Below are positions 3,047-63,300 of a DNA stretch of 64,000 nucleotides, in pieces. The translations under genes and the position numbers were made by a program. Under the pieces are notes generated by a model, which saw nothing but the letters and a program-made list of their open reading frames with translations, did no database searches and was not told the origin of the DNA. Every line of letters begins with the position of its first letter. Position 1 is the first letter of the stretch. This DNA is from Sipunculus nudus. Its lineage: Eukaryota; Annelida; Sipuncula; Golfingiida; Sipunculidae. The DNA lies in assembly GCA_026874595.1 (NCBI GenBank), contig CM049310.1:31869558-31933557 (forward strand), written 5' to 3'.

Positions 3047-3051
<5 letters not shown>

Positions 3052-3095
<44 letters not shown>
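3052..3095. repeat. (TA)n microsatellite
   Basis: Uninterrupted TA dinucleotides, 22 units. Confidence 0.95.
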
Positions 3096-3098
<3 letters not shown>

Positions 3099-4602
3099 TG
3101 ATGTAGCAATGGTAACTTATTATGAATAAATTAAGTCTAACCCAAAGACTACCATTTCTGATCCATACACACCTGTATAAATGTTAATATGATTATGTAT
3201 ATATCTTATAATATTTCAGAGGAAGTGTTTGAACTTGCACTTGAACTCCCTCTAACCCGAAGAAGAGAAGCTTGTCATGGTGGCAGAAAAGAAGGTAATA
3301 CACTGTAAAACCTGATAAGTTGTCTCAACTTAAATAAAAGGCGGCAATGATGCTTCAATTTTTCAAGTTGAGATAACTTATCTTTCTCAAGTTACTAAAC
3401 TTGCATAAAACAAGAGACGCAAATTGATATTGCAATGTTTTAAGTTGGGATGACTGAAAAAAAATAGATTACTCAATCTTATCTCGCGAATGAGGTGTAA
3501 TATATAAATTCAATTTAATACAATACGTTCTGCAAGACAATAGTAAAGCTTTGAAGTTTATTTACCAGAGAAATATATTGGAAGTCCTAGAATACATTAA
3601 ATACATGCATAAACAAGATATTTGCATACATATATTTAAACAAGTTATTAATTAATATACATAACAAAGATCAAGTTGGCACACTACAACAAGGGACCCA
3701 TAGCATAGGTCGACTCATTCAGCTGAAAATTGTAAATTTTAGCAAATGGAAAATGTACTTATTCTCATTTTTTTATATTTTAGTATTTGAAAAGTTATGG
3801 GGTCAAACATTTGTAAAATTTTCAGTATTTCAATTATGTGACTGTTATAGGTGTTTTAAATACCCACTGGGGGTATATAAGACCATGTAAATATAAATAA
3901 GGAAGAAAGTGGAGATAAGCTGTTGTATAATAATAGTTTAATTTATAAACTGAAATTTAATGTTGTAAAAATTTTGAAATTTTACATTTAAATTATCATG
4001 AACTAAATTTGATATTAAAGTATATATTTCACTCTATAATATATGAAAATAGTGGCCTGAAACCAATCATGAACAAGGGGAAAAGGTGATGGGCTCAGAG
4101 TTATATGATGGGATATATTTGATAATAAAAAAGCTTGATGATAACAGGTATATATGATATGTTCTTCCAAAACTTGGAGAATAGATGCAGTTTTTATCAC
4201 TGCTCGAATTTCAGATTTTTCCTGCTATTGCAGCCCCTTAAAGTTATTACTGAGCCTTTCTGGCCTTTCTGGCTCTGTGCACTGGGCTGGCTTGTAAAGC
4301 ACACTTGGGCTTCCATAACTCTATACAAGCTTAATACTTCACAAGTGTTTTTAAATTCTATGTTATGAAAGCTCAACACTTTTATTGTAAATCAAGTGTA
4401 AATAAAATCAACAGTGCTAAGAGGAAAATAATGTGCCATGGTCAAAGCTGGGCAAACTTAAAGGTTATAATTTGTATGGTGGGGTATGACTTAGATACAA
4501 GTCCCCCCCCCCCCCACCCCGAAGTAGGTTTGTATGTCTGTTATCTGATATTTTTACACTTACATATTTATATACAGGTGTTTGTGTGTCATGTAATATA
4601 TC

Positions 4603-9488: not shown

Positions 9489-11573
9489 GAGGATCACGGT
9501 TTCCGCAAGCGGAAAATGCAACTAGGTGTTAAAATGGAGAAAGAAAATAAAATGTTGAACTTGGCGGTGGAGGCCCAAGGAGATCAGTGTGCTTATATCT
9601 CAGTTGACACGATCCATCATACCTCCGGCATTTCCAATCTGAGTCTCGAGACCCTAAGGAACTCTTGTTTGAATATTATCACCTCTGAAGGAATATACAC
9701 TATTCTTCGTAGTGGTCAGTTCCGCTACGGGGACAAGTTGTCATTAATCACAGGAGGAAGATACTCTGCGAACGAGTGCATAACTGAACTTTGTTTACCG
9801 GAGAGTGTGCTCGCAGCGACACGGAAAACTTTTGCACACCCTGCTGTCCTAGACGCCATGAATCAGAGCGTTGTGATATTGGTCAATGACATCAAAACAA
9901 ATATCATGGTACCCGTTGCTATGGAGGGATGTAAAATACTTGGACAATTTGAAAAAGAAATGACTGTCTATTTGAAATTAATAAAGAAAACTCGCTCTGA
10001 TGCCCTGCATCGCGGCGTTATTTGCAACAAAGATGGTACCATAATATTCATCTGTGACACGATACAGTTGGTGAGTATATCTAGCGAATCAAACCAGCAG
10101 CGTCTGAAATTCGAGCTCGCATGGGAAGAAATATCAGAATCCGACATTACTCCTGAACAAGATGGCAACGAATATCTGAAATATCTGATTCTGGAAGATG
10201 TTCCAGGTTCGGGAAAAAATCTCAAACGACAACTGCAATATAATTGTACAGAAATATTGTCTTTGTCAACCGAGGATCAAGGGTTGTTCGAAACAATTGG
10301 AAAAATAGTCACACCAGGTGAACAGTCTCATCATTGGCGTATCATCATTGTTTTCTCGCCGACAGTTTTCTGTCCTGAAGAAGAAAGCAACACAGTTCAC
10401 ACCGAGGTCATAAAAAAATGTACGGTGCTGGGTGATCTTCTTAAAGGTCTCCAAGGCATGCACTTGGACGTCCCCATGTTTGGGGTCACATGTTGCAGCC
10501 AGTTTATTTCAAACAATGATGTACATCATACTAATGCCATGAATTCCCTGTCTTCGGAGCCTATATGGGCGTTTGCAAGGTGCGTGTTATGGGAAATGAT
10601 GTACAAGAACTTGTATTTGATTGATATTGGATCCATGGACGAGACAGACCTTTCAGCTCTAACAAATGTAGTACAGAACCAGATAGCGCAATTCCCTGAA
10701 TGGACAGTGCGTACAGGCCGAGTGTTCGTTAACCAAATATCTCAGATCAGAGAACCAGTGAAGTGTCAACTGCGTAGAAAGCAGCTGTTTGATCAGTCAA
10801 CCAATGTCCTTCTTTGTTCGGCTTCCGCGGACACTTTGAATGACCCTCACTTTGTATTACAAGAGGAAATGCCCGCCAAATGTTCAGATATCCATCTTGT
10901 GGATATAAAGGTGAAAAAGGCAGTCATTCCTGCTGCATATGAATATCCTGTGACGGTTCATGCAGAACAACTCTGTTCCAGCATTGAGACACTAAACAGT
11001 TTAGGAAAGCATCCAGTCATAACCCTCTCGGTGGTAGGAAGAGAAACGAACGGGAATGCACCTTTGCACTCAGATGTTGCAACTTTGTATCCAGCCACAT
11101 GCCAGTCTTTCATTAGTGTTCCTCGTGGGTGCATCGTTAAGCTGAGAGATATTCCTCAGGGTTCTGAACTCATCCTACCGAAGCTCTTTATCGTCTATCA
11201 TCTGCTACAGGCTGCCAAAGATCGGCGTTATAAGCATGTATTACTTCTTCAGACTTCCAATGACCCAACGGATTTGGAAAAGCTTGTTATTACATTGTTA
11301 GAAGAGCATCTAGGAACGAGGTTTGAGGCGACAACGACCCACATGTTACTAAAATCGCCATCGCTAGATCAGAACACACTTGTCATAATTACCTCATCGG
11401 TCAGAAATATCGACCTCCCAGAGCACCTATCCCTGCTTGTATTGGAAGAAAGCGTCAACAAAAATCTCACAGGTTATATGAGTTTCATGGGGCACGAACT
11501 GAGAAGTGTTAGCACAACAAATATATTTGCCCCATCGTTTCTGCTGAAGGGGGCACCTGTTTTCTTCAAATGA
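9480..11573 (+). CDS. AFPK long exon, part 2: DH end and ER-like region
   Basis: Continues the same exon in the next frame. Open sequence upstream of the first Met (reading FTEEDHGFRKRK) shows that the Met at 9516 is not a start. DH second-half motif HPAVLDAMNQS holds the catalytic Asp (9852-9854). From about 10080 to 11570 the sequence is a non-catalytic linker plus a region placed where FAS has its enoyl reductase, but I see no glycine-rich NADPH motif, so any ER is degenerate. It ends at TGA 11571-11573, which lies within the first copy of a 77-bp duplication; the same TGA recurs at 11648-11650. Confidence 0.8.
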   Translation, partial: FTEEDHGFRKRKMQLGVKMEKENKMLNLAVEAQGDQCAYISVDTIHHTSGISNLSLETLRNSCLNIITSEGIYTILRSGQFRYGDKLSLITGGRYSANECITELCLPESVLAATRKTFAHPAVLDAMNQSVVILVNDIKTNIMVPVAMEGCKILGQFEKEMTVYLKLIKKTRSDALHRGVICNKDGTIIFICDTIQLVSISSESNQQRLKFELAWEEISESDITPEQDGNEYLKYLILEDVPGSGKNLKRQLQYNCTEILSLSTEDQGLFETIGKIVTPGEQSHHWRIIIVFSPTVFCPEEESNTVHTEVIKKCTVLGDLLKGLQGMHLDVPMFGVTCCSQFISNNDVHHTNAMNSLSSEPIWAFARCVLWEMMYKNLYLIDIGSMDETDLSALTNVVQNQIAQFPEWTVRTGRVFVNQISQIREPVKCQLRRKQLFDQSTNVLLCSASADTLNDPHFVLQEEMPAKCSDIHLVDIKVKKAVIPAAYEYPVTVHAEQLCSSIETLNSLGKHPVITLSVVGRETNGNAPLHSDVATLYPATCQSFISVPRGCIVKLRDIPQGSELILPKLFIVYHLLQAAKDRRYKHVLLLQTSNDPTDLEKLVITLLEEHLGTRFEATTTHMLLKSPSLDQNTLVIITSSVRNIDLPEHLSLLVLEESVNKNLTGYMSFMGHELRSVSTTNIFAPSFLLKGAPVFFK

Positions 11574-11676
11574 CTCAAAGGATTGAAACACATTAAGCTA
11601 TATTTGCCCCATCGTTTCTGCTGAAGGGGGCACCTGTTTTCTTCAAATGACTCAAAGGATTGAAACACATTAAGCT
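11522..11676 (+). repeat. 77-bp exact tandem duplication inside the AFPK coding exon
   Basis: Positions 11522-11598 are repeated immediately at 11599-11675. Because 77 is not a multiple of three, the second copy shifts the frame. Each copy contains a TGA in the frame read from its own upstream sequence. Removing one copy puts the sequence before and after into a single frame, interrupted only by that TGA. The near-perfect identity points to a recent event. Confidence 0.93.
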
Positions 11677-24844: not shown

Positions 24845-26045
24845 TAGTACCCGGGCGATATCTTCATTAACTCCCTTGAGTTGTTTGGCCGCATGGCGGC
24901 GGCAAATAGAATTTTCAAGATGGAAGTGTCTATAGGCAGCCGGCAATGTTGGCTGCTTAGACTCTCCAGGCTCTGACACTCCGGAGCTGTGGCCTGCATA
25001 GACTTTCCCCAGTCCAGCCCCTGCGCAGATGACAATGCTTTAACTGATATTCTATAGCTGATATTACTGAGTGTCAGATATGTGACGTTCTAGTTCTAGA
25101 GGTATTGGTTAGTAAAATGTTGCTGAATAAAAAAAAAGGTAACAGAATTGGATTTTTACTTGGATATTAAAAAGATGAAAACACCAGAATGCAACATCAC
25201 ATTGCATGTAATATAAATCAATTTTTATGGTCAAAAATTTTAACTCTTATGTACTGGAATATATACAGCTTCACTACATGTATTTTCATGATTAGTTAGT
25301 TGGTTTGGCAATCAGTTACAGCAATGATTTCACAAGTTTGTATCTCATGTGGTGGGAGAGAAGATTCTAACTTCTTGGTGAATAGTGAATGAACAGATAC
25401 TGAATATATGCTGGTCTTACAAAATTTCCTCACAAGCCATGGTAATACTGTGTGACAATTTATTAGTAACTTTCAACATGTAATATAGTGATATACTCTG
25501 AGCAGCGGTGGTTCAAAAGTTAAGGTTATGAGTTTGCAAGGATTGGTATGTTTCAGTAACACCCTTCAAGTAATATTGGAACTTAACATATTTGGTATTA
25601 AATCATTGCTTCAGTGTCATGTATGGTATTAATATTTATCTATGCAATATGTATAATTTGTACAATAAAATTTCAATTAAATATTATGAAAATTTTGTTC
25701 ATTATGATTTAATGTATGATTTAATCCATGTATCCAGACCATAGTAAGTCTAGAATGTCACAGATCTAGCAGATGACACTCAGTAATAGCATTTAAAAAC
25801 ATTATCGGCTGCCTTGACACCTCCTTTCGGTAAGACAATAACACGGTGTTGTTGCGTTTTTTGCGAATATAAGGGGTGTCACCTACAAATAACGAATCCA
25901 ATTAGGTCTGCCAGATGTAAGAATCGAGGTAGCAAGGAGTAACACGCCTTTATTAAGCTGACGTGGCCTGTCTATAAAAGCGCTATTGGCGACACGCTCA
26001 CCCGGCATGTAAACAAACCACAAGTGCATTCCCGAATGTGTTGTG

Positions 26046-33847: not shown

Positions 33848-34690
33848 AAAACTGCATCAAGGGAAAATACCCAGTTATACAATAAGTGGAAATACATGTA
33901 TGTGTCTGCCGGTCATATCTTGTACCGACTGTAGGTATGACTTGACACGTACAACATATTCAAGGATACACGTGTTGTTTACATGCCAGGTGGGCGTGTC
34001 GCCGGTAGCGCTGTTAAAGACGGGCTGGGTCATGCTATCAATGTCGGGTTACTCCTTCCTGCCTCCACAATACGGCTTTTCACATCTGGCAGACTAAATT
34101 TGAATCGTCATTTGTAGTTGACACCCCTTAGAATATTATATCCGCGCAAACACACCAAGCCCAGTTTGTCTCGCCGAGCCGTAGACAACAACACTGCACT
34201 AATCGTCTGACCTGGTCAGTCAATGAATTACAAATACCTGCTAATGTAAATACATGGAGTGTAGTTGTATATATTACAGTAAATAAGAATTACAATTTTT
34301 GACCATGCAAGTTGATTTTTATTACATGCAATGTTATGCAGCATTTTGGTGTTTTCAAATTTTCAATTTCAAAGTTAAAATCCAATTTTGTTACCTAATT
34401 TTTTTAATTCAGCAATATTTAACTAACAAATACCTCTAGGTCTAGAATGTCACATATCTGACACTCAGTAATATCAGTTATATCATATCAGTTAAAGCAT
34501 TGTCATCTGCGCAGGGGCTTGACTGAGGAAAGTCTAGGCAGCCGACAGCTCCGGAGTTTCAGAGCCTGGAGAGTCTGAGCAGCTGTCGGCTGTCCGGATA
34601 CCTCTATCTTGAAAGTCCCATTTGGCGCCACGCGGTCAACAAATCCAAGGCGTGAATGTAGATGTCGGCCGGGTACGATGTGTTGATGTC
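33848..34690 (-). repeat. Right member of the long inverted repeat pair
   Basis: The uninterrupted, oppositely oriented copy of the unit at 24845-28172. It contains a strong hairpin: AGCCGACAGCT near 34540 and its complement AGCTGTCGGCT near 34582. It gives the empty site for the hAT-like insertion and lacks the other extra piece. Confidence 0.82.
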
Positions 34691-37716: not shown

Positions 37717-39335
37717 TCATTTTGGGCCCTTGGCGGACTTGCAGCAAAGCCCCAGTCCAGGTCCTATGAAAGAAAGTACCGCCGGAAGAAACAGCAATGC
37801 GTGTGTCACACCAAAGAATGCCACCAGAAACATGGTTTTGAAGAAAGACTGGAATGTGTAAGATCTTGCAAAAACCAAAAATATTACTCCGATAATTGAC
37901 GTGAGGGCGCCATTGAGGATTGCCGTCGCCATCTTTTCTAAAGCGTTAATTGCCCGAGTCTTTCTAGAACCATCCTTAACAGCCATGAATGCATGACAAA
38001 TATGTGCGCTGAAGTCTACAGAAAATCCAATACTAAGAACTATTTGAATCATGGTGTTGAAACTTAAAGTCAAACCCCAAAAATGCATGAATCCAAACGT
38101 TCCAATCATAATCATCACCATTGTTAAAGTGACGTAAACAGCTGATAGAGGATGAGGGATGAATATCAAAGCGATCACAAACATGGCTGCTATGGCAACC
38201 CCACAAATCTGTAGAGTCTCAGGGAGTATGGTCACATACTGCTCAAAGAATATAAATGTCGCGCTGAAGGCAAACACGGGCTGACCTGAAGCGGACATGA
38301 CGTCACGAATGGAGACCATCATGTCACCTTGAAACTTTAAATCATCACTGCCTGCTCCCTGGACATATATCCGGGAACTCAGAATACTACTGTTGTCTTG
38401 ACTGAACACCACATCCGTTTCAAATATTGCAGACAAAGGGAGGAATTCCTCCCGGAGAATTTTCAGATAATCCATACCAGTAACATTTGGACGGCGAGTA
38501 ACTTTTAGATACTGTCTAAATGAACTGACCCAAGAAAGAGAGAAATCATCCAAAACGTATCTACTTGCCTGTACCCTTTCTATCAACTGTTCCATGTTTT
38601 TTTCCGTAACCTTTTCCCAATAATTCAGAGGTTGTGTAAATACAATCTGAACGATTGGACCTCTAAAACTAAAATATTTGGAGTTCCAGTTAGCAAACTT
38701 ACGCCAGTAAGAGTCATCATTAGCCAGGTTCTTTAGATCAAGGCCCTCTTTCATTTGTGTTGCCCCCCAGGTCGACAGACCGAGAAGCCCAAGAAACACT
38801 AGTACTATGATTGGTCTACTGATATTATGCAAAATAACTTTTGGGAAATTTTTGCTGAAATTCTTCTCACAGCTCCAACCAATTTTATTATACCCGGGGA
38901 GGTTGTTTTTACAAAGACATTTTGCATCGTTTACAGAAAAGGTGATTGTATTGATTTTGGAGTTGTTAGACGCCGTGAAATCCTCCTGAGTTCGATGTGA
39001 ATTTTTATTTAATTCGATTGTTGATTTAGTAGGATATATTTTGCCAGACATTCCCTTATATTGGGTAGACCTAGAACCGTCGTTATTTGCATTTGCACAT
39101 TTGGTTTTACTTATCTTTGAGTCTTTAAATTGGATTCCATTGCTTGACACTTTCCCATTATCGGGTACTGGAATCACTGGGTCCACCCAGACATCTTGGA
39201 TATTCACTCGGTTTATTACTGTATTGGGACTTCCCTGTTCTTTTTGGCCATTTATGTTGTAACGGCTGTAGTAGATTGCCACAAGAGCGCCGAAAGTAGT
39301 GATCATGTTGATATAACAAAACAAGAGCGTCAAAC
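37717..39335 (-). CDS. Patched-related gene, last coding exon
   Basis: Follows a TTTTTTCAG acceptor. It encodes the sixth helix (LTLLFCYINMITTFGALVAI), the polar linker, the second large loop and the final helices with GFSVDFSAHICHAF, ending in LCCKSAKGPK and a stop. It joins the previous exon by a shared Gly codon (IFTG-LTLL), in line with family sequence. Confidence 0.9.
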
Positions 39336-39390
39336 CTGAAAAAAGTAGATCAAGAATGTATTAATTACCACAAAGTCTGGTCCTCACTCT

Positions 39391-39448
<58 letters not shown>

Positions 39449-42400
39449 CTACTCATTTGTTTATAAAATGAATATTTGAAGAATTTATTTCAAATCTCCT
39501 GCAAAAGATACATTTAGAAGGAAAAACATATGTCAGATTACCGGAACATTAAAGCTTCACCAATGTTCATGTCAATAAAACTAGTTAAACTAATAGCTCG
39601 TGCACTGCTATAAATGTGCCGTTTTATGATTGTCAGTCATTATTGTCAGATGTAGTTACAAAAATGATATTATTTCTTAAACATTTTTTATGCCAGTTTA
39701 TTGTTTGGTTACCTAATTATATGTGTATAGATACTAGTAATTACAAGTGGCCGGTAATGCATTGCCGTTAAGAAGGCTAGATGGCGCCACTTAACAAGGA
39801 TTCACGTTTACAGAATTTCATGAATAGTGATCAGTTCTTTCTGATTTATGTATCTTTAAGACTGAAAGTTAAATCAGCATAAAAGAAAGGAAATGGCTTA
39901 TACAGATAGGTGGCGCCATCCATATCCGACACTTGACACTTCCAAAGATAGAATCAATGTTGGAGCCTCAGGAGAATAACTCATATTGTATGTTGCATGA
40001 ATAAAGAAGTAAATTACTACAATGATAAAAATGGCAGGTATTAAAGAGATTTGATATCAATATGACTCATATGAAGCAACTATGGTTCCTTGAAGGTTTA
40101 TAGGTCATATTTTGTAAAATACTTTCCTTCATAAAATAAGAATGTTTAACATAGAGAAAACAAACGGCAAATTTAATCGTTATGTGAAACATAAGGAGCG
40201 TTTTTTATCTTGAGTCTATTTTACTAGAGGATAATAATAAGTCCAGTTATGGTTCTTTATACCGTGGTTAATGCAATGTAATTTTCTATCGAAACATATA
40301 ACATTGTCTCAGTTTTTTTCCCTATCGGCCCAAAGTACACTTTTCTGTCACATATGCCAATCAATTTCCAATAAGAATGTATCTGTAATGGAAGGATCAG
40401 AAAAAGCATATACTTTAAAAGTTGTAAAGTCAGTATACAACTTTTCAAAAATTATTTTAATAATGAAGGAATACGGAAAAAGGACTCAATTTATAAAATA
40501 AATATTAACTTTGCGTGGATAAAATTGCAGATTATCAACATATAGAACAATATTCTAATTAAAAAATAGTTGATAATGATCGAGGCATAGTGAATCAGCG
40601 AAATAAACAAGTGACCCATGGGTCATGACGCTCAGCTGACTGGGAAGAGATTCGCAAAAGGAAATTTTATCATCAAAATGGTAGTATATACCCATTCAAC
40701 TGAAGCATCAAACAGATTAACCAACAGGCCAAGATTGAGTCTGTATTTATATATCTCAAAAATAGAGAAAAATGTGTAAAATTTTAAAACTAGAATACGG
40801 GTAACCGACAAGTGACTACATGTATCTGCCAAAATCGGATAGTGAGGCATGGATTGAGTGGCAAGGGGAAATAGAGTGAGGTATGTTGCATATTAGCATG
40901 GATGTCTGCAGCCTTAATGTGTATGTAGGTTGTGCCACCTACGACAAATCCAGAAAGCTGTCCAAGTTGTATACACCTGCAAAATTTTAGGCAGAAAAGT
41001 CAAACCACTACATGTATATGAGCGATTTTTGCCCATGGCAGACAAACAGACAAACACTGTGCAAAAATCTTTGCAGGTAACCCCTCCAGTTTTGTGTAAG
41101 ATAAAGACCTATGTGAGATCTAAAAACATGCACAATTTTGGCCCAATCGGTCAAATGGTTCCTGAGATATGAGCTTGGATGTGTCCAGCGTTAACTAATA
41201 TTGTAGGTGGCGCCACCTGTCATAAAATCAAGAAAGCTGTCCACGATGTATAAACCTGCAAAATTTTAGGCAGTTATGTCGAACCACTACAGAGAAATGC
41301 GTGATTTTAGGCCACGGCAGACTAACAGACAGACGCTGTGCAAACATTGTTACAGGTGGCGCCACCATTTTTTGTGTATGTTACAGAGCTATCAAAGGGC
41401 TACATTTGTATAAATTTTATTTCCTGATCGGTCAAACGGTTCCCGAGATATAAGCTTGGATGTCATCAGCGTGAACGTGAACGTAGGTGGCGCCACCTGT
41501 CATAAAATCTATCCTGGATGTACACACATGACGAATTTCAGGTGAATTAGTCAATTCACTGCAGATATATGAGTGATTTTAACCCAAGGCAGATGAACAG
41601 ATGGACACTGTGCAAACATGGTTACAGGTGGCGCCACCATTTTTTGTGTATGTTATAAAGCAATCCAAGGGCTACATTAGTATCAATTTTATTTCCTGAT
41701 TGGTCAAACGGTTCCCGAGATATGAGGGTTTATGAGTGGAAACAGACCCACAAATGGACACTGGATAGAGAGGAAAGGTCAGAGGTCAATGCAAATTGGT
41801 TAGGCACCAGTTCACATGTGACCCGATAATAGGTGTAAGTTTGGGAAAAATCTGTCCATTAGTCTCCGAGGAGCTCTCTGGAAACGAACGCCGCCGCGGC
41901 GGAGGAACTCGGTCAAAAACATAGTATCCGCAAAACTTCGTTTTGGCGGATACAAAAATACAGGTGGCTCCACCAGTCTGCAGAAACTAATAAAAACACT
42001 TAATGGTCAATATCCATGCAAAAAATCATGGTGATCTCTGCATTAGTTGTTCAGATACTTCAGTTTTTGTATCAAATTGTCCATTATTCTGAGGGATACT
42101 TCGGAGTCCTATAGCTTGAAGGATATGGGTAACAGAGACCTAATTTCAAGTTTCCACAGGCACCTTTCATGGGCCTCCTTGCATGACAAGAATGAAGATT
42201 CTAGGTCCAGTTGTTGTGATTTGTACCCTGTTGACAGATAACCACATCTTTAAAGGTCTCAAAAAAAAAGAAAAAAATTCGTAAAAATTTGAAAAAAAAC
42301 AGAGGTGGCACACCCAGTCTGCAGAAACTGATGGAACAGCTCATGATCAATATGTATGCCGAAAATCATGACCATCAGTGTTGTAGTTATTGAAATACTG

Positions 42401-45400
42401 CAGTTTTTGTATCAAATTTTCCATTATTCTGGGGGGGGGGGTATTTTGGACCCATACAGCTTAAAGAATATGGGTAACAGAGACCTAATTTCAAGTTTCC
42501 ATGGAGACTTTTTATGGGTCTCCCTGTCTGTCAAGAATGAAGATTCTTGGTCCAGTTTTTATGATTTGTGCCCTGTTAACAGATGTTCATATCTTTAAAG
42601 GTCTCAAAAATACAGAAAAATTTCGTAAAAAAAAACGAACAAATACAGGTGGTGCCACCAGTCTGCAGAAACTTATGAAACACTCCATGATCAATATCCA
42701 TGCAAACAATTATGGTTATCTCTGCATTAGTTGTTCAGATACTTTAGCTTTTGTATCAAATTTTCCATTATTCTGAGCTGTACTTTGGAGTGCCATAGCT
42801 CAAAGGATATGGGTAACAGAGACCAAATTTCAGGTTTCCATGGAGACTTATCATTGGTCTCCCTGTGTGTCAAGAACGAAGATTCTAGGTCCAGTCGTTA
42901 CGATTTGTACCCTGTTGACAGATAACTACATCCTTAAAGGTCTCAAAAATGGAGAAAACAATTCGTGAACATTGAAAAATACATTTTGATTACACATTAC
43001 GATTTGTGCCACGCTAACAGATGACAGCATCCTCAAAGGTCTCAAAAATAGAGGAAAAAATCGTAAAAAAATCAAACAGTACAGGTGGCGCCACCAGTCT
43101 GCAGGAACTGATTGAACATCTCATGATCAATATGTAAAAAAATGAAGACCATCAGTGATGTAGTTATTGAGATATTGAAGTTTTTGTATGAATTTTTTTA
43201 CTATTCTGGGGGGTACTTTGGGGCCCCATAGCTCAAAGGATATGGGTAACAGAGACCTAATTTCTGGTTTCCAAGGAGATTTTTCATGGACCTCTCAGTG
43301 TGTCAAGAATTAAGATTCTAAATCCAGTCTTTATGATTTGTGCCTTGTTAACAGATGTTCACATTTTTAAAGGTCTCAAAAATAGAGAAAAAAATTCGTA
43401 AAAAATCAAAAAATACAGGTGGCGCCACCAGTCTGCAGGAAGTGATGTAACATCTCATGATCAATATGTATGCCAAAAATCATGACCATCAGTCAAGTAG
43501 TTAATGAGATATTGAAGTTTTTGTATGAAATTTTTGACTTTTCTGGGGGGTACTTTGGGGCCACATAGCTCGAAGGATATGAGTAACAGAGACCTAATTT
43601 CTGGTTTCCAAGGAGATTTTTTATGGACCTCTCAGAATCCCAAGTAACAAGGTTCTAGGTCCAGCGGTTACGATTTGTGCCTGGTTAACGGACGGACAGA
43701 CGGTTAGACGGACAGACGGACGACGGACAAAGAGTGATCGCTATAGCTCAGATGACTTTCAGTCAGCTGAGCTAAAAAACACAATACAAGATAAAATAAT
43801 GTTTTATTTTAATACCTACTCCAGAAAATGATGCGAACTTTTTTAATTTTTTTTAACTGATTGAAAAATAATGGTAATATTTACACGAAGAACTGACCGG
43901 TAAAGATTGAGAAGTTTCTGATGCTATTGTAACTGCTGGCGGCGCCGACCCCAAACGCCGCCAAGTCTGTCAGTGTCGTCACAGTGATGGCGGTGGCAGA
44001 GTTCTCAAACATCTTGCCGATTTGGTCACGTGGGCTCGATAAATTATCAGGTAAGCCCGCCAGCAAAACGAACATGTCACCGATGCCTTTACCTGAAACA
44101 ATAAAGTTCATTCATTCTAGTGATTTGCTTGAGATACTCATAGATAATTTAAGTTTGGAAAGTCAGGTGTTCACTGATATATGGGGCCTATATCGAAGGG
44201 CATTTGCTGTATTTAATGTCGAAAATAAACCAGCAAGAATCAATAGAAATGCTCTGTGTTGGAGATAAGATACACTAAAATTAAAGATATATTTTTATAT
44301 ATTACCAAAGATACAAAGACCTTTCAAATAAATTTTATCTCTTTAACTTAAATATATATTTATGTTTCGCAAAGATAATACATAGTGACTTCCTTGCGCC
44401 ACCTCCATTTTCCAGTCATGCTTTTTCTGTTTCCAATACTTTGATATTTTCAATGGTATTGGTGTGTTTCCCTACAGCATCCAGACATCTGGTAAATTAC
44501 CGAAAAAGTAAAATATGTTCTTCAGGCCTTTTTAATCCGTATAATCATGCAAAGATTGAAGAAAGACAGTCTGCAAACTAAAGAATCGTTCTTTGCATTT
44601 TCTGCACGAAACGTACATTAAAATCCAAATCATTTAAAATTCTTTGTTACTTATAAATGTCTTATTGATTTCATCTAGGAGTTTATAGTATAAAACAGAA
44701 TAATTATCCCTATTTTATGTTTTGCCTTATGCAGTATAGTCACTCACATGTGAGCATGAGACTGATGTTCCATTTTTTTTATACCTGTATGAATTATATT
44801 CTGAAGGAGGCTTTTGCGGGGGAATTCTATGAATTTGCTTTACTTAGAATATACAAACTAACACTTACTTACCAAGCACAAGAAAGGGCGCTACACCAAC
44901 TATGTTTACAAACTTGAGTCCACACGCACACAGAAAGCCGAAGGCGGCGACTATTGCTAGGACTACGGCAACGACTCCAAACCGTGCAAGATTAGCTCTG
45001 GCGCTGAAACACCCGCCGTCTTCAGAGACGATGGAGACATAGGTTATCATTGCTGTAAATGTCAGGGAGATCCAAATGATGTCCCCTGTCGTACTTTTGT
45101 CTAGTTCAGTGTTCATGGAGTTAGATGCTTGGTAGGCAAAATCTATTGGATTTATAGATTGTCTTGCCATAAATCTCAGGAACGCTTCCTCCCACGTGGT
45201 TGCTCGGGATTTATCTGCCGTTGTTTCGTCCCGCAAGAAAAACGTCAGACGAATAGCCTTCATTCTGATCAGGAACCCTTTTTGTACAGTTGGTTCTGCT
45301 ACGTTTTGTCTCAAGTCATGCTGTTCTCCGTTTTTATCGGTGTAGAGAGGATAAGAAACATTTCCCGCCAAGTAGTCGGACTGAAACTCTTGTGTTGTCA

Positions 45401-46078
45401 AGTATTCACCTTCTACCACGCAGGAGTTCTTTCTAAAGGCACAAAGGTCACGGTACATGTACAGGGAACCACTTTGTTGAATGCTGATATTCTTTATGTT
45501 ATTGGACAGTTTGCGAATGCTAGCTAAGTTGTGTCCTATAAAATATTTCTCATCCTCAAAAATGACATCTCCAAACAATCCAAAGGTTGGAAGTTTGTAG
45601 GAGTAAAAGTTCGGATCTGATTTAAGAGGAAAGATCGTGATTAGTCGTTGCCGGTCAGCTGAAGCTTGGCTACCCTGAGGTGTATACAGTTTTTCAATGT
45701 CCGACTCAACTTTGAGTGCCAAAAATCCTAAGCCAAGTGCACAAGATATAACCAAGGGAATCACCAAAAATATCTTCCTGTGGTCATAAAGGAATCTTCC
45801 ATAGGCTGAGAAAGCTTTGCCAAATGTTTTGTCTACCACATCTACTTGCCAATTCTGTAAAAGAAACAACCTTTTAAATGCCAAGCAATATATAAAAGCG
45901 TTGTTAGTGTACCAATCAAATGACCCTTACATGAGCAAGAAATAATTTTGCTATTTTATTATCAACATTTTACTTTTGTTTTTTTTTATGTCAAAGATCA
46001 ACATCTGTTGCAATTTGTATCTATCTATCTGTCTATTATAATTATCATTATTGTTTTTTTTAATTTTTATTATTATCA

Positions 46079-54929: not shown

Positions 54930-57900
54930 TGGAGTTGGTCTCAACTTAGAAATCTTATAATGAACAAGGTGGAATGAACCTCTCAAGGAAAGGTTTTTGT
55001 AAACCTTTTGGTTTAACCCAGTAAATTGATTTTAAACTTCGCCTTCTTCTTATAATTTTCCTTACCCTTATCTACATATATATTTATGATAATAAGCAAT
55101 TATTACAAAAGATATGGAGATTTTTGTTTATAATGAACTCTTTCGTGTTCAAAAGATACCGGACTGTTATGGGCTTTAAGCGGGAGAAAAATAAGTTCAA
55201 GTATTGACTTTAAAGTTAGGTAAAGCAGATTAAATTTTTATCGATAAAAAATGGTACAATGCTACCAGTGTCACCTGACTAATTATTTGAAAGATTGTTG
55301 ACTTAAACTGAAAGAGACTTGCATATTTTATGTGTGAACCAGCCTTTCTAATTTCGCTGGTCTAATAAATATCAATAATAATGATACTTTAAGCTCTCTG
55401 GTCGTGTTATTAATAATACTGTTAATATGTTGAAGTGTAACTGATTAACCCTTGCTATATCGCTTCCAAACGCGTCTGTATCTTAAGTACACGACGTCAA
55501 GAGGTTTTATAATTGACTGCATGACCACTCCGTATATCTCATTTTATATTCTTGGGAACAATTACTTCCTTCTCTGAATAAGCTCATAATAAGGTCAACG
55601 TACCAGTTCATTTGAACCTTGACAATGCATAAATCATTTAAATTTTAGGTTTTTGTAACGTGTATAACGGATAAAATTTGCCGTTTTGTTTTATTCATTG
55701 CTTTAAACGGAGGGAGAATTTTCTGACAGGTTGTGTGTTTTAGAACAAACAAGTGACCCATGGGTCATGACGCTCAGCTGACTGGGAAGAGATTCACAAA
55801 AGGAAATTTTATCATCAGAATGGTAGATACCCATTCAACTGAAGCATCAAACAGATTAACCAACAGGCCAAGATTTAGTCTGTATTTATATATCTGAAAA
55901 ATCGATAAAAAATGTGTAAACTTTAAAAACTAGAATACGGGTAGCCGACAAGTGACTACGTGTATCCGCCAAAATCAGAGTGGAACGGGTCAAGTGAGGC
56001 ATGGATTGAGTGGCAAGGGGAAACAGAGTGAGGTATGTTGCATATTAGCATGGATGTCTGCAGCCTAAATGTGTATGTAGGTTGTGCCACCTACCAAAAA
56101 TCCAGAAAGCTGTCCAAGTTGTATACATATGCAAAATTTTAGGCAGAAAAGTCAAACCACTACATGGATATGAGTGATTTTAGCCCACGGCAGACAAACA
56201 GACAGACGCTGTGCAAAAATGGTTGCAGGTGGCCCCTCCAGTTTTGTGTATAATAAAGACCTATGTGAGATCTAAACACAAGCACAATTTTGGCCCAATC
56301 GGTCAAATGGTTCCTGAGATATTAGCTTGGATGTGTGCAGCGTTAACTAGAATGTAGGTGTCGCCACCTGTCATAAAATCAAGTAAACTGTCCAGGATGT
56401 ATAAACCTGCAAAATTTTAGGCAGTTATGTCAAACCACTACAGAGAAATGAGTGATTTTAGGCCACGGCAGACAAACATACAGACGCTGTGCAAAATGTG
56501 CAAAAATGTTTGCAGGTGGCCCCTCCAGTTTTGTGTATGATAAAGACCTATGTGAGATCTATACACATGCAAAATTTTGGCCCAATCGTTCAAACGGTTC
56601 CCGAGATATGAGCTTGGATGTCATCAGCGAGAACTAGAAAGTAGGTGGCGCCACCTGTCATAAAATCAAGAAAGCTATCCAGGATGTATACGCATGCCGA
56701 ATTTCAGGTGAATTGGTCAATTCACTGTAGAGATATGAGTGATTTTAACCAAAGGCAGATGAACAGATGGACACTGTGCAAACATGGTTACAGTTAGCGC
56801 CATCATTTTTTGTGTTTGTTATACAGCTATCCAAGGACTACATTTGTATAAATTTTATTTCCTGATCAGTCAAACGGTTCCCGAGATATAAGCTTGGATG
56901 TCATCAGCGTGAACGTGAATGTAGGTGGTGCCACCTGTCATAAAATCAAGAAAGCTATCCAGGATGTATAAAACTGCAAAATTTTAGGCAGATATGTCAA
57001 ACCACTACAGAGAAATGAGTGATTTTAGGCCTCGGCAGACAAACATACAGACGCTGTGCAAAATGTGCAAAAATGGTTGCAGGTGGCTTCTCCAGTTTTG
57101 TGTATGATAAAGACCTATGTGAGATCTATACACATGCAAAATTTTGGCCTAATCGTTCAAACGGTTCCCGAGATATGAGCTTGGATGTCATCAGCGTGAA
57201 TGGGAATGTAGGTGGCGCCACCTGTCATAAAATCAAGAAAGCTATCCAGGATGTATACGCATGCCGAATTTCAGGTGAATTAGTCAATTCACTGCAGAGA
57301 TATGAGTGATTTTAACCAAAGGCAGATGAACAGATGGACATTGTGCAAACATGGTTACAGGTGGCGCCACCATTTTTTGTGTATGTTATAGAACTATCCA
57401 AGGGCTACATTTGAAAAATTTTATTTCCTGATCAGTCAAACGGTTCCCGAGATATGAGCTAGGAAAGGTCATAAAATCAAGTCCCAGAGGAGCTTTCTGG
57501 AAACGAACGCGGCAACGGCGGAGGAACCCGGTCAAAAACATAGTATCCGCAAAACTTCGTTTTGGCGGGTACAAAAATACAGGTGGCTCCACCAGTCTGC
57601 AGAAACTAATAAAAACACTTAATGATCAAATATCCATGCAAAGAACCATGGTGATCTCCGCATTAGTTGTTCAGATACTCCAGCTTTTGTATCAAATTGT
57701 CCATTATTCTGAGGGCTACTTCGGAGTCCTATAGCTTGAAGGATATGGGTAACAGAGACCTAATTTTAAGTTTCCACAGGCACTTTTCATGGGCCTCCTT
57801 GCATGACAAGAATGAAGATTCTAGGTCCAGTTGTTGCGATTTGTACCCTGTTGACAGATAACCACATCTTTAAAGGTATCAAAAAAAAGAGAAAAAAATC

Positions 57901-59060
57901 GTAAAATTTGAAAAAATAGAGGTGGCGCACCCAGTCTGCAGAAACTGATGGAACAGGTCATGATCAATATGTATGCCGAAAATCATGACCATCAGTGTTG
58001 TAGTTATTGAGATACTGCAGTTTTTGTATCAAATTTTCCATTATTCTGGGGGTAAGCCATACAGCTTAAAGAATATGGGTAACAGAGATCTAATTTCAGG
58101 TTTCCATGGAGACTTTTCATGGGTCTCCCTGTGTGTCAAGAATGAAAATTCAAGGTCCAGTTTAAATGATTTGTGCCCCGTTAACAGATGTTCATAACTT
58201 TAAAGGTCTCAAAAATAGAGAAAAATTCGTAAAAAAAACCCGAACAAATACAGGTGGTGCCACCAGTCTGCAGAAACTGATGAAACACTCCATGATCAAT
58301 ATCCATGAAAACAATTATGGTGATCTCTGCATTAGTTGTTCAGATACTTCAGCTTTTGTATCAAATTTCCATTATTCTGAGCTGTACTTTGGAGTGCCAT
58401 AGCTCAAAGGATATGGGTAACAGAGACCTAATTTCAGGTTTCCATGGAGACTTATTATGGGTCTCCCTGTGTGTCAAGAATGAAGATTCTAGGTCCAGTC
58501 GTTACGATTTGTACCCTGTTGACAGATAACTACATCCTTAAAGGTCTCAAAAATAGAGAAAACAATTCGTAAAATAATCGAAAAATACAGGTGGCGCCAC
58601 CAGTCTGCAGGAACTTATGGAACATCTCATGATCAATATGTATGCTAAAAATCATGACCATCAGTGATGTAGTTATTGAGAGGGGAACTGAAGTTTTTGT
58701 ATGAAATTTTTTACTATTCTGGGGGGTACTTTGGGGCCCCATAGCTCAAAGGATATGGGTAACAGAGACCTAAATTCTGGTTTCCAAGGAGATTTTTCAT
58801 GGACCTCTCAGTGTATTAAGAATTAAGATTCTAGGTCTAGTCTTTACGATTTGTGCCTTGTTAACAGATGTTCACATTTTTTCAGTCAGCTGAGCTAAAA
58901 ATGAATAAAATATTTCAAGCATTTACTACTTTAATTGAATTTATCAACATGAAGCATTGTAATTAATATTTTATCATTTAAAATTAAGGCGTCAGGTTTG
59001 TCAGGGATAATCCATTAGGAAAACAATTAAATTGAATCTTTAGGGCTCTGATGAGATTTT
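54930..59060 (+). repeat. Local repeat unit, direct copy A (interrupted)
   Basis: Left part to about 55748 and right part from 58902 match copies B and C. Landmarks are CTTTCGTGTTCAAAAGATAC, CTCTCTGGTCGTGTTA, ACCCTTGCTATATCGCTTCC, TTACTTCCTTCTCTGAATAA and GGCGTCAGGTTTGTCAG. The 3.15-kb palindrome-rich element sits between the two parts. No coding potential seen. Confidence 0.8.
55749..58901 (+). mobile_element. Composite element of GGTGGCGCCACC-centred monomers, copy 2
   Basis: Same start (palindrome TGACCCATGGGTCA at 55754-55767) and same final hairpin arm and CTAAAAA tail as 40605-43779. It has more left-type monomers but an internal deletion at about 58880 that removed the last right-type monomer, the GACGGACA tract and the left hairpin arm. 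Frames such as 56452-56637 and 57019-57309 are near-identical only because the monomers repeat; they are not genes. It interrupts local repeat copy A. Confidence 0.87.
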
Positions 59061-60069
59061 GCTAAACGTTTTGTTTTGGCAAGTCTGCTTTTTGACAGAA
59101 AAATTTCTGTAGATTCTACAACCTAAAGTAAAACTGATTTCTCAATGTAATTTGGTTTGAAGCTGTGAATAGACTTTATTTAAAAAAAAACTAGTGGATT
59201 ATTTTGATTATAAGACCAACAGAATTGGAAAAAGGCTAATTGTTTTTTGGTGACCCTCCCGGGACATACTGAATGAACATTTGTCATGTGTATGTGCAGG
59301 AAACTATTAACATAATATAAGGTTACAAGACTAAAACAGCTGGAAAACAACCGAGAATAAGCATAACATATTGCAGCCCATTTTTATCATCGTGTTATAA
59401 ATTCCAAACATGGGAAATAAAAGTGATTGCAATATACCATTTTATTATTTAGATACGGGGCAATTTCGTTATTCCTGTTATTGCTGTGCTATTCCTGGTA
59501 AAATGACTAATACTACGTGATAACACCTAATATTTTATCATGTAAGTCAAAAGTGTAATTTGTACATATTTCCGATCAGTCAAAATTGTTATTGTGATAA
59601 AAAAAGTAGTTATGCTATTTCGAATAAACCTATATATAAACCTTATGTAAAGATTATACATTCTATGAACAATATTTTCCTGTTATTAAAATGTTCACAA
59701 TTGGGAATATGATTTATTAGACGCACCCGTGGAAAAATCAAGGCTATTTGAGATAAAAGGGATTTGTAATGAGGTGGTACAGGCACAGAATGTTGCATAT
59801 TTTAATCCTTCGCTCTTCCCGGGACTTTTTTCAGGTGATGCACCCACATGATATGACAATTACTAAAATTCTCCAGGAAACCTCCTCCCATAAGTCTACA
59901 AAGAATGGCAAGTTATGCTGTTCAAGAAATCACACGAAGAAGTACTTTTTGGGGGAATGTTTTTTCCTCCGATCAAAATGGGTATATTATCATCATTGCC
60001 AAAGTCATTAAAAATAAAATGGATATAAGGATTGTATATACACGCCATATACTGTGAAAGAAATTTCTA
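59061..60069. repeat. Repeat-derived stretch between local repeat copies A and B
   Basis: Contains ACCTTATGTAAAGATTATAC (about 59640), matched at about 60963, and a copy of the GAATGTTGCATATTTTAA ... ATTCTCCAGGAA repeat seen at 22200. No gene recognised. Confidence 0.5.
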
Positions 60070-61010
60070 GGAATTACAAAACTATAGCAATGTGAAAATT
60101 TATGAAAATTAATGTTTTATAAATTAAGGCAATGATCATAAATAGGATGGCGATTTTGGTTTATAATTAGTTCTTTCGTGTCCAAAAGATCCAGGACTGT
60201 TATAGGCTTTAAGGAGGATAATTTAGTACAAGTATTAAAAAGCAAATTAAAGTTTTAACGATAAAAAAAGGATCCAATGCTGCCAGTGTCACCTGTATGA
60301 CTAATCATTTGAAAGATGACTAAAAGAGAATCGCGTATTTTATGTGTGACTCAGCCTTTCCAATTAAGCTGGTCTAATAAATATCAATGATAATAATACG
60401 TTAAGCTCTTTGGTCGTGTTATGAATAATGGAATATCTTGTTAATATGTTAGGGTGTAACCGATTTACCCTTGCTATATCGCTCCCGAAACGCATATGTC
60501 TCTAATGTACAGGAACGTCAACATGTGTTATAATTCATTGCATCACCACGCCGTTTTTCTCGTTTTATATTCCTGGAAACACTTACTTCCTTCTCTGAAT
60601 AAGCTCATTTTATGGTCAACGTTCCAGTTCATTTGAACCTTGACAATAGTTACATCATTTATATTTGAAGGTTTCATGACTTGTATAACGGATACAATTT
60701 GCCGTTTTGTTTTATTCAAATCTTCAAACGGACGGAAAATTTATGACAGGTTGTGTGGTTTGGTACAACAAAGAATGAAATATTTTAGACATTTACTACT
60801 TTTATTGTATGTAGGATCATTAACATTGTAAAAGATAATTAATATCATGTAAAAGGCGTCAGGTTTGTCAGAGATAATACATAAGTAAAACCAATAAATC
60901 GAATATTTAGGCCTCTGAAGAGTTTAACGCACCATTTTTTTTTTAATATTGTAATATTATAAAAACCTTGTGTAAGGATTATGCATTCTATTAACATTTT
61001 TTATATATAT
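60070..61010 (+). repeat. Local repeat unit, direct copy B
   Basis: Carries the same landmarks as copy A and, at about 60765-60775, the uninterrupted sequence where the large element sits in copy A. Confidence 0.8.
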
Positions 61011-61396
61011 GAAAATCGCATTGGTGCCTCCTGAAAAAGCGTGACATGTTTGGACGACCTTGAAGCACAATAGAAATACTAATGAATCGGTTATATTTTG
61101 TGTATCATACAAGTATATTCCAAATAACATCATGCATGTGCCCGATTCGGTAAAGTATTTTATAAACTTTAGTCTTATATTTTAATTTGCGAAGCTATTG
61201 GCAATCTGTCCCAGTCACTTTGGTTTATATTAATTTATTATAAACAAAATTACAATCAACATGCACACATTTGATTCCGGTCAGCTTTGTATCTCATAAC
61301 TTTATCTGATATATACATGGCTATCAGTTGCTAAATCTTTCACCTACTGGAAGACTACTTTTCATTATACTTGAAAATCCCTTAATTTTTTTTAAA

Positions 61397-61398
61397 AA

Positions 61399-61436
<38 letters not shown>
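61397..61436. repeat. (TA)n microsatellite
   Basis: Uninterrupted TA dinucleotides. A C run follows at 61586-61596. Confidence 0.95.
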
Positions 61437-61442
<6 letters not shown>

Positions 61443-61879
61443 GTTCAGTTACTTTGATTTCGTCCTTTCGTAGGGAGCAGCGTTCAGAGTTTTTTAACAA
61501 CTGCTTTGATGTGGTAATCGGAATAGTAGGGGATAATCTGAAATCGATTGCATGTTACCTGGGGATAGTCAAAATCGGTTTTTAATCCCCCCCCCCCAGT
61601 AATCTGAAAAGGGGATAATATGAAATCGCTACACCGGGATAACGTTATACTCACGCAGTAAATCATTACCTTGAGAACATGCAGGTTTCCATTATTTCTT
61701 CAATATATAGTAATGTTCATGTATGGTTACAGCAAAATATTTATCTGATGTTGTAATAAGATTCTTGAACACAAAAGCCTTATCGCTACAAAGGCGAGAT
61801 AAAACATTTCTGTGGCACTGCATTTCCATTTTATTAACAGTTAAAAGCTAACATAATATTTCGCAGCATTACCTAAATG

Positions 61880-62900
61880 TTGATATAGAGCGAAAGGTTT
61901 ACTTTTAATAAGCCTTTAGTTTAAACCAAGTAAATTAATTTCAAACTTTCTCTTCCTCTAATAATTTCCTTTATCGAATGACTATAACTACATATATGTT
62001 ATATACACTGTTGTGCTTACATATATATCAAGGTTAAACTTTAAGGTTAACAGCGAGTTGATTAAGGTCTAAGGTAAGCAATGTTCGCAAAAAGTATGCA
62101 GATTTATGTTTAGAATTATATCATTCGCATCTCAAAGATATTTGACTGTCATTGGTTTAAAGTGGAATATTCTAGTACAGGTAAAATGTTGACTTTCAGA
62201 TTAGGTAAAGCATTTTAAATTTTGAACGATAAAAAATGGTACAGGGCTACCAGTTTCACCTTTACGACTAATCATTTGAAGCATTGCTGATATAATTTGA
62301 AATAGACTTGCATATTTCATGTGTGACTCAGCGCAGCCTTCAAGTTTGTATGATGGCATACACTAACGTATATCCAATAAACAACCACATTATATATATC
62401 AGCATTTCCACGTACTAAATATACCACTAGAAAGACATTCATTTCTCTGATCGTGTTAGGACTAATGCAATATCATGTTAGTATGTTGTTTAGCTGATGA
62501 ACCCTTGCTATAATTGTATCCCGTCACGCAACGGTGCTGAAGTACACGACGTCAACATGTTTTATAATTGATTGCATGACCACTCTGTTTATCTCATTTT
62601 ATATTCCTGGGAACACTTACTTCCTTCTCTGAATAAGCTCATAATACGGTCAACGTACCAGTTCATTTGAACCATGAAAATGCTTACATAATTTAAATCT
62701 GAGGGTTTCGTGACCTGTAATATTGGTAAAATTTGGTTTTGTTTTATTAAATGCTTTAAACCGAAGGAGAGGTTTCTGACAGGATTTGTGGTTTGGTACA
62801 ACAATGCATAAAATATTTTATACAGTTATAATTTACTTATTTTAGAATTTAAATGTCATCATCAAGAATATCTTATCATGTAAAAGTAAGACGTAATAAA
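61880..62900 (+). repeat. Local repeat unit, direct copy C
   Basis: Same landmarks as A and B, with a second unoccupied version of the insertion point at about 62798-62806. Confidence 0.78.
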
Positions 62901-63300
62901 AGGAAGGAAGTGTTTCCAGGAATATAAAAAGAAATTAACGGAGTGGTAATGCAATCAATTTTTGATGTACATGTACATCAGATACAGATGCGTTTCGAGA
63001 GCACAATAGCAAGGGTTCATCAGTTATACTTTAACATTTTAACAGGATCTTCAATTATTCATAACACGACCAGAGAGCTTAACGTATTGTTACTGGTGGT
63101 TTTTATTAGAACTGATACGTTGAGCTTATTATGAGCTTTATCAGACGAAGAAGTATATGTTTCCAGGGATATAGAATAAGATAAACGGCGGTGAAGCAAT
63201 CAATTATAAAACATTGTGGCGTACATGCATATTTTTCCAATTTAGCCGAATATTATGAGACAATTATAGCAAGGAATAATTTTTCCTGATGTATGGAGTA
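62895..63300 (-). repeat. Local repeat unit, two inverted partial copies (D, E)
   Basis: Read on the - strand, 63125-62895 and 63300-63118 each contain ACCCTTGCTAT or CCTTGCTATAATTG, a TTGATTGCATTACCACTCCG or TTGATTGCTTCACCGCCG form, and TATATTCC(C)TGGAAACA, i.e. the conserved core of copies A-C. With copy C they form a fold-back. Confidence 0.7.

Follow-up and report, generated by a model that had tools for sequence, protein, structure and literature searches.

In a 64,000-nucleotide stretch of the Sipunculus nudus genome (assembly GCA_026874595.1, contig CM049310.1, positions 31,869,558 to 31,933,557 of the forward strand; hereafter, the window), two copies of a repetitive element carry two families of monomers that share a 12-bp palindromic box, GGTGGCGCCACC. 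The element is very probably a nest of two non-autonomous Helentrons (HINEs) on the minus strand, an outer HINE carrying an inner one. The outer HINE family has monomers of ~337 bp (B monomers), typical HINE ends, and empty insertion sites. A second, HINE-like element, with monomers of ~280-bp period (A monomers) and different subterminal inverted repeats (subTIRs), sits in an A-tract of the outer HINE. Outer copies without this insert exist, and the composite occurs in many copies that group together. An earlier note, made from the letters of the window alone, had proposed a mobile element close to pearl or Helentron-like elements. Both parts of this proposal are supported by the fixed ends in many copies, the subTIRs, the hairpins and the empty sites.

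Copy 1 of the composite lies at 40605..43778 (-), although its outermost A/T bases on both sides are possibly target DNA, and copy 2 lies at 55747..58901 (-). The two are 90.6% identical across 2,663 aligned bases, copy 2 being the older and having more A units, and neither contains a stop-to-stop frame of at least 110 amino acids. Read on the minus strand, the composite starts with TTTTTAGCTCAGCTGACTG. Copy 1 continues with the near-complement AGTCATCTGAGCT, which forms a hairpin with this start, and then with a GTCC/GTCT-type microsatellite (43691..43729 (-)) adjoining the 5′ end. The 3′ terminus is CAGTCAGCTGAGCGTCATGACCCATGGGTCACTTGTTT. The outer subTIRs, GCTCAGCTGACTG and CAGTCAGCTGAGC, are 13 bp long. 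The 5′ subTIR is at 43761..43773 (-) in copy 1 and 58884-58896 (-) in copy 2, and the 3′ subTIR at 40630..40642 (-) and 55772-55784 (-), respectively. An inverted repeat (IR) complementary to the 5′ subTIR, which makes up the 5′ hairpin, is found in copy 1 only (43745..43757 (-)). The 3′ palindrome TGACCCATGGGTCA, the presumed rolling-circle terminator hairpin, is exact in both copies (40612..40625 (-) and 55754-55767 (-)) and stands 7 nt from the 3′ terminus. When up to three mismatches are allowed, the window has three matches against 2.05 expected, a count that by itself does not exceed chance. All hairpins were folded using RNA parameters.

HINEs are described as carrying, in order, a 5′ subTIR, an IR, a microsatellite, central repeats, a 3′ subTIR, and a palindrome (PMC4067079; PMC7492417). 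The outer element follows this order. Its subTIRs exceed the 11 bp that is the minimum for a HINE, the 5′ IR and microsatellite are present in copy 1 and in those genome copies that display this end, and the 3′ palindrome forms a hairpin. Since the composite has the HINE order when read on the minus strand, the ‘start’ of the earlier note is the 3′ hairpin, and its ‘CTAAAAA end’, which terminates at 43778 in copy 1 and at 58901 in copy 2, is the 5′ end. Within copy 1, B monomers occupy 41963..43690 (-), with boxes at 41963, 42304, 42648, 43084 and 43418, and one of these monomers is mostly deleted around 42997-43076. A monomers, in units of ~130-150 bp that pair to ~280 bp, occupy 40928..41740 (-), with boxes at 40928, 41206, 41355, 41486 and 41627.

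Canonical Helitrons have 5′ TC and 3′ CTRR termini and insert between A and T, whereas the ends found here are TTTTTAG... and ...CACTTGTTT. Terminal inverted repeat (TIR) transposons and miniature inverted-repeat transposable elements (MITEs) have inverted repeats at their very termini and generate a target-site duplication. Here, the repeats are subterminal and no duplication was seen.

The fixed ends recur throughout the genome (1.43 Gb). A 31-mer from the 3′ end has 3,349 exact matches, and a 38-mer, allowing up to three mismatches, has at least 10,000, against none for its reversed control. Among 60 sequences, 32 contain the right end at up to three mismatches, 39 times in all, and the DNA beyond it varies; a few of these ends belong to a third family that shares the subTIR, and most of the remaining 28 sequences stop before the right end. 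The end pattern had no exact match in viral contigs.

Two paralogous empty sites were identified for copy 2. At 60239..60925 (unstranded), the joined flanks align in one piece (706 bp, 81%), and at 62444..62894 (unstranded), the joined-flank alignment covers 461 bp at 79%. Both come from a repeat found at ~55.2, 60.2 and 62.2 kb, with a further copy in inverted orientation near 63.1 kb (window 55194-63212). They present an A-rich target without target duplication, in agreement with the insertion of HINEs into T-rich DNA, and five bases at the junction (AACAA) are attributable to either element or host. No empty site was found for copy 1.

The inner element has the same kind of organisation. 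In copy 1, it spans 40790..41958 (-), with its 5′ end, TTTTTGTATCCGCC, at 41958 and its 3′ end at 40790; its subTIRs are at 41941-41953 and 40822-40834, and an IR is at 41924-41936 (all (-)). In copy 2, it spans 55930-57577 (-), with subTIRs at 57560-57572 and 55962-55974. The segment begins with TTTTTGTATCCGCCAAAACGAAGTTTTGCGGATAC (copy 1); at its other end, as read in copy 2, TTTTGGCGGATAC precedes a hairpin and CTAG. It shows its own subTIRs, 5′ IR and 3′ hairpin, and a T-rich empty site, as expected of a HINE.

This empty site is provided by outer copies in which the insert is lacking. Thirty copies were sampled solely by an exact 3′-end match, as the first 30 on the sequence C1. Sixteen carry the inner insert, 12 (among which L082 is counted) are uninterrupted, and two (L066 and L073) have another body. 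The 12 outer-only copies have a continuous A run at the insertion site (for example, GTGTAAACTTTAAAAAAAATACAGGTGGCTCC). The left inner junction falls within that A run in all 16 composites, and the right junction falls in the same run in the nine composites where it could be read, as well as in both window copies; most stretches of the other seven end earlier. A second sample, drawn by B monomer, gave an identical junction between the inner element and the first B monomer in 19 of 28 loci (in L002 with a changed TAC), the other nine having longer arrays, other insertions, or too short a stretch. In that genome query, 40 of 2,031 first-look candidates were scored, and L001 (the window itself) and L016 (which overlaps L004) were dropped before counting. 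Genome-wide, the same outer flank accompanies 831 of the 957 exact matches to the inner 5′ end and 1,560 of the 1,731 to the inner 3′ end. The earlier note had seen two monomer families in a fixed order. The order holds: wherever both arrays are covered, in the two window copies and in 10 of the 16 composites, the A monomers have the TGACCC end on one side and the B monomers on the other. What the order reflects is a nested second element.

The composites also appear to share a history. In an unrooted tree of the 3′ module, based on 186 columns, a single branch separates all 16 composites and the two window copies from the rest. Its support is 93/95 (just below the tool’s star), and it recurs in 88% of 200 bootstraps, although the bootstrap had not converged. 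This grouping fits a single nesting event followed by joint spread, which is the simplest reading. Mean pairwise difference in the 3′ module is 2.6% among eight young composites, which lie 0.7-1.6% from their own consensus, 3.4% among the 10 others, and 8.7% among the 12 outer-only copies; the spread of the composite therefore looks more recent. Among the 11 copies with both ends read, the inner segment is between 0.86 and 1.64 kb long, and at five loci (L004, L006, L008, L020 and L024) the B arrays are long and have a higher-order period of three monomers, ~1,009 bp. Together, these variations indicate that the arrays still expand and contract.

Outer-type elements have also inserted in the A-rich tract just upstream of the monomer palindrome at other loci (L030 at 2237, L012 at 2253, L078 at 1500, and L066 at 1500, in oriented coordinates). 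Elements of this kind have thus repeatedly inserted into arrays like their own.

Several observations weigh against a nest of two HINEs. The two inner subTIRs differ by one mismatch in each window copy, and copy 2 is missing the outer 5′ IR and microsatellite. One composite (L080) has no inner 5′ hairpin end, although its stretch spans the place. Counts of exact ends across the genome reveal no clear population of solo inner elements, and the outer flank is absent at 126 of the 957 inner 5′ ends and 171 of the 1,731 inner 3′ ends; by our estimate, these numbers are approximately what point changes would produce. The tree that groups the composites is unrooted and built from 186 columns. Lastly, among 30 loci with Rep sequences, most have VIR in place of F/Y-x-R, which is present in only four, and no autonomous element with the same ends was found within these loci (~+/-1.5 kb).

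The genome contains a candidate source of the Rep machinery. PF14214 has 143 matches, seven of them in open frames longer than 2,000 amino acids. Examples of full-length Helentron frames are at C11:50385293, C13:66180677 and C7:71189229. Helentrons are characterised by the S of an RGSPH motif, and F/Y-x-R is given as diagnostic (PMC4067079). The S of RGSPH/HGSPH is present in 27 of the 30 Rep loci, one of the others having L, one W, and one no motif. The earlier note had suggested a search for an autonomous partner with the same ends. In the 30 loci, which stop short of the ends of these Rep elements, the sole end-like match, in L058, has five mismatches and is taken as chance. In keeping with what is established for Helentrons, a Rep enzyme of this type presumably mobilises the composite. 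The Rep/helicase/endonuclease of an autonomous Helentron would act in trans, with copying starting at the outer TTTTTAG end, running through the inner element, whose own hairpins would be bypassed, and stopping at the outer TGACCCATGGGTCA hairpin. The copied strand would then be inserted into T-rich DNA without target duplication.

A different emphasis is placed on the box itself if the palindrome is a working part under selection, for instance as a candidate site for a host protein or as a pairing point for monomer exchange. This is compatible with nesting, and we consider it possible but rather unlikely. The box is certainly abundant. With up to two mismatches, the window has 23 matches, whereas shuffles give an expectation of 0.52 and none of 100 shuffles reaches 23. 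Copy 1 accounts for nine of these matches and copy 2 for 12; the other two lie elsewhere. Worn positions in register occur at 42304 in copy 1 and at 56795 and 57082 in copy 2, and when these are counted, the ‘ten or more’ and ‘fourteen’ positions of the earlier note are right. Across the genome, there are 111,729 exact boxes, compared with 14 of the reversed sequence, and this abundance speaks for a working part. Three four-base right contexts, AGTC (19,956), TGTC (28,962) and ATTT (15,674), make up at most 64,592 of the exact boxes between them, or 58%, as one site could count twice. In the first 2.9 Mb of C1, exact boxes with these contexts form 70 clusters (44 A-only, 16 B-only, and 10 with both), of which the 34 with at least three boxes comprise 22 A-only, four B-only, and eight with both.

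To assess how well the box is retained, monomers were searched for with the box masked, and near-copies were collapsed at 93%. Retention in the box versus other columns was 0.952 versus 0.899 for monomer type Aa (14 clusters), 0.901 versus 0.870 for Ab (16), 0.877 versus 0.859 for B (47), and 0.879 versus 0.866 for B3 (42), the last being largely the same hits as B. Against random columns, this excess is not significant (P = 0.07, 0.25, 0.36 and 0.40, respectively), whereas against composition-matched columns P falls to 0.030, 0.085, 0.045 and 0.078. Once hits with gaps in the palindrome were dropped (one Aa, five Ab, one B), the box is exact in 34 of 62 usable hits for Aa, 23 of 55 for Ab, and 125 of 236 for B; exact self-complementarity is often lost. 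A further set comprises 15 old monomers from other arrays. They are what remains of 17 new masked-profile hits at E <1e-7 after removal of L090 at 3032, which ends before the box, and L068 at 1787, which is a unit of the A type. Here, the box scores 0.811 against 0.697 (P = 0.05; composition-matched, 0.015), although the monomers were picked after their boxes were visible and six are in one locus (L079). Even in this set, the box ranks 27th of 116 twelve-column windows, and other monomer boxes, TTTCAGGCCAAT and CTCCTGAGATAT, rank higher. Between diverged types, retention of the box is 0.72-0.89 compared with 0.29-0.63 for the flanks, but the seeds were mostly chosen for carrying a box.

The idea that palindromes are kept while their flanks drift therefore survives as a slight excess under composition matching, with other boxes kept equally or better. 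Conservation far above the surroundings is rejected. An excess this modest does not demonstrate a palindrome-driven mechanism, but that A and B monomers have little else in common leaves room for a role. The proposal that monomers pivot on the palindrome or are exchanged there fares no better: the switch between A and B is a Helentron-type insertion in an A-tract adjoining, not within, a palindrome.

Comparison of right flanks bears on where the box came from. A monomers and the old monomers of L009 and L010 are clearly related beyond the box, with nine of 12 comparisons having a score reached in at most two of 400 shuffles. For B variants against A-family flanks, the same is true of only four of 21 comparisons, all involving one of the three B variants, and the idea that A and B form one clear family is reduced to a weak claim. 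The two have the box in common and little else left, through distant descent or by other means. The weakening of the family claim slightly raises the odds that the palindrome works. Within the monomer, the box is old and moderately well kept. It marks the monomer boundaries of an old family made up of A and of old relatives found in other arrays; it is also present in B monomers, which are otherwise at most distant relatives of that family. It is taken as having spread mainly as a passenger of the arrays.

As regards a host protein, one half of the palindrome, AGGTGGCGC, resembles the core of CTCF sites and is present in oligonucleotides for CTCF sites in two papers. Of the CTCF consensus, however, only AGGTGGCGC is present and the upstream half is absent. 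A more specific version, which we hold to be slightly less probable again, is that GGTGGCGCCACC is a candidate site for an abundant host architectural or silencing protein, maintained by selection on monomers that have otherwise diverged almost past recognition, and that Helentron arrays have sowed ~112,000 identical sites. If the proposal were true, ~112,000 sites in one 1.43-Gb genome may organise its chromatin, and the nesting of two box-bearing HINEs would have raised the number of sites per jump. A literature search for the 12-mer matched only an unrelated chitinase paper.

Palindrome-like 12-mers also occur near copy 1 at 39780 and 39909, 129 bp apart, in unrelated-looking DNA (window 39780-39920), and are not recognised as monomers by the masked profile. 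Elsewhere, palindrome-bounded monomers adjoin another end-like sequence, AACAAGGCCTACAGGCCTAATG, in L010 (~2528-3110) and L082 (~1716-2100; both oriented), perhaps the ends of a further HINE family.

A second alternative is that the two arrays were joined without nesting, by recombination between HINEs sharing flanking modules or by capture of satellite junction fragments. Both routes, besides insertion of filler DNA, have been proposed for double-array HINEs of the oyster Crassostrea gigas (PMC7492417). In S. nudus, however, the A part is equipped with a subTIR pair and hairpins of its own, and outer-only copies are uninterrupted at both of its boundaries, in a T-rich target of the Helentron type. 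Such a joining is therefore improbable here. A third alternative, in which ordinary satellite DNA is merely enclosed by unrelated repeats and forms no mobile unit, can be set aside almost entirely. Long B arrays with their ~1,009-bp period and the frequency of single-type arrays speak for it, but dozens of copies have constant ends with different flanks, and both elements have empty sites. The empty sites of copy 2 refute the idea for that copy, and the fixed ends that copy 1 shares with other copies refute it there. The preferred reading thus remains a HINE nested within a HINE.

Other features of the window were also recorded. Copy 1 is situated between a Patched-domain frame (44865-45926 (-)) and a long frame without a Pfam match (37717-39360 (-)); these are perhaps one gene, with copy 1 in its intron. 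Positions 1-1326 contain the end of a third HINE, which has the same 5′ subTIR and microsatellite, monomers of ~685 bp, and no GGTGGCGCCACC within two mismatches. Ends of this third type have also inserted in B monomers at L028 and L030. A perfect 77-bp tandem duplication (11522-11675) in a polyketide/fatty-acid-synthase-like gene region sits at the point where one long frame gives way to another, and is either a recent mutation or an assembly error. An inverted repeat pair of ~350 bp, 83-91% complementary, lies at 24952-25302 and 34231-34583.

The earlier note knew of no named element with this layout, but the layout is that of HINE, DINE-1 and Cg_HINE elements, and double-array HINEs exist in C. 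gigas (PMC7492417). What is new here is that the two arrays belong to two nested HINEs. A literature search in which few subscription journals were covered found no report of a two-HINE nest multiplied as a unit. The likeness to HINE/DINE-1 elements (PMC4067079) extends to the subTIRs, 5′ IR, microsatellite, tandem repeats, 3′ palindrome, non-coding nature, and T-rich target without duplication. The 3′ subTIR is 25-37 nt from the 3′ end, compared with 38-60 in a mite HINE (PMC4067079). Unlike in those elements, two HINEs with different subTIR families are nested here and occur together in many copies.

Cg_HINE elements are similar in their satellite-like central repeats, in the GTCY/GTCC microsatellite by the 5′ end, and in their genome-wide dispersal, and two of them have double arrays in a fixed order (clusters 10+13 and 11+12; PMC7492417). 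Their monomers average 140-180 bp, compared with ~337 and ~280 bp (130-150 x 2) in S. nudus. In contrast to Cg_HINEs, the double array here comes from nesting, and a GC-rich 12-bp palindrome marks the monomer boundaries. Pearl elements of bivalves, compared by description only, are also short, have a tandem-repeat core (repeat ~160 bp, shorter than the monomers here), and have been reclassified as non-autonomous Helentrons (PMC7492417). Shuffled Helitron loci of C. gigas (PMC12628747; related material in PMC11136912) likewise have Helitron parts and satellite arrays inserted into one another, with different arrays per element. Those are described as complex loci, whereas in S. nudus many copies of the nested unit itself are present.

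The composite also illustrates how arrays carried by transposons can bring a single perfect 12-bp palindrome to more than 10^5 copies per genome, and a genome so rich in boxes is a natural substrate for asking whether satellite boxes bind host proteins. For the double-array HINEs of the oyster, several routes of origin have been proposed (recombination, junction capture, or filler-DNA insertion), and their authors were unable to connect Cg_HINEs with autonomous elements (PMC7492417). The S. nudus composite provides a copy-by-copy case of how a double array can arise, with one HINE inserting into an A-tract of another before both are multiplied together.

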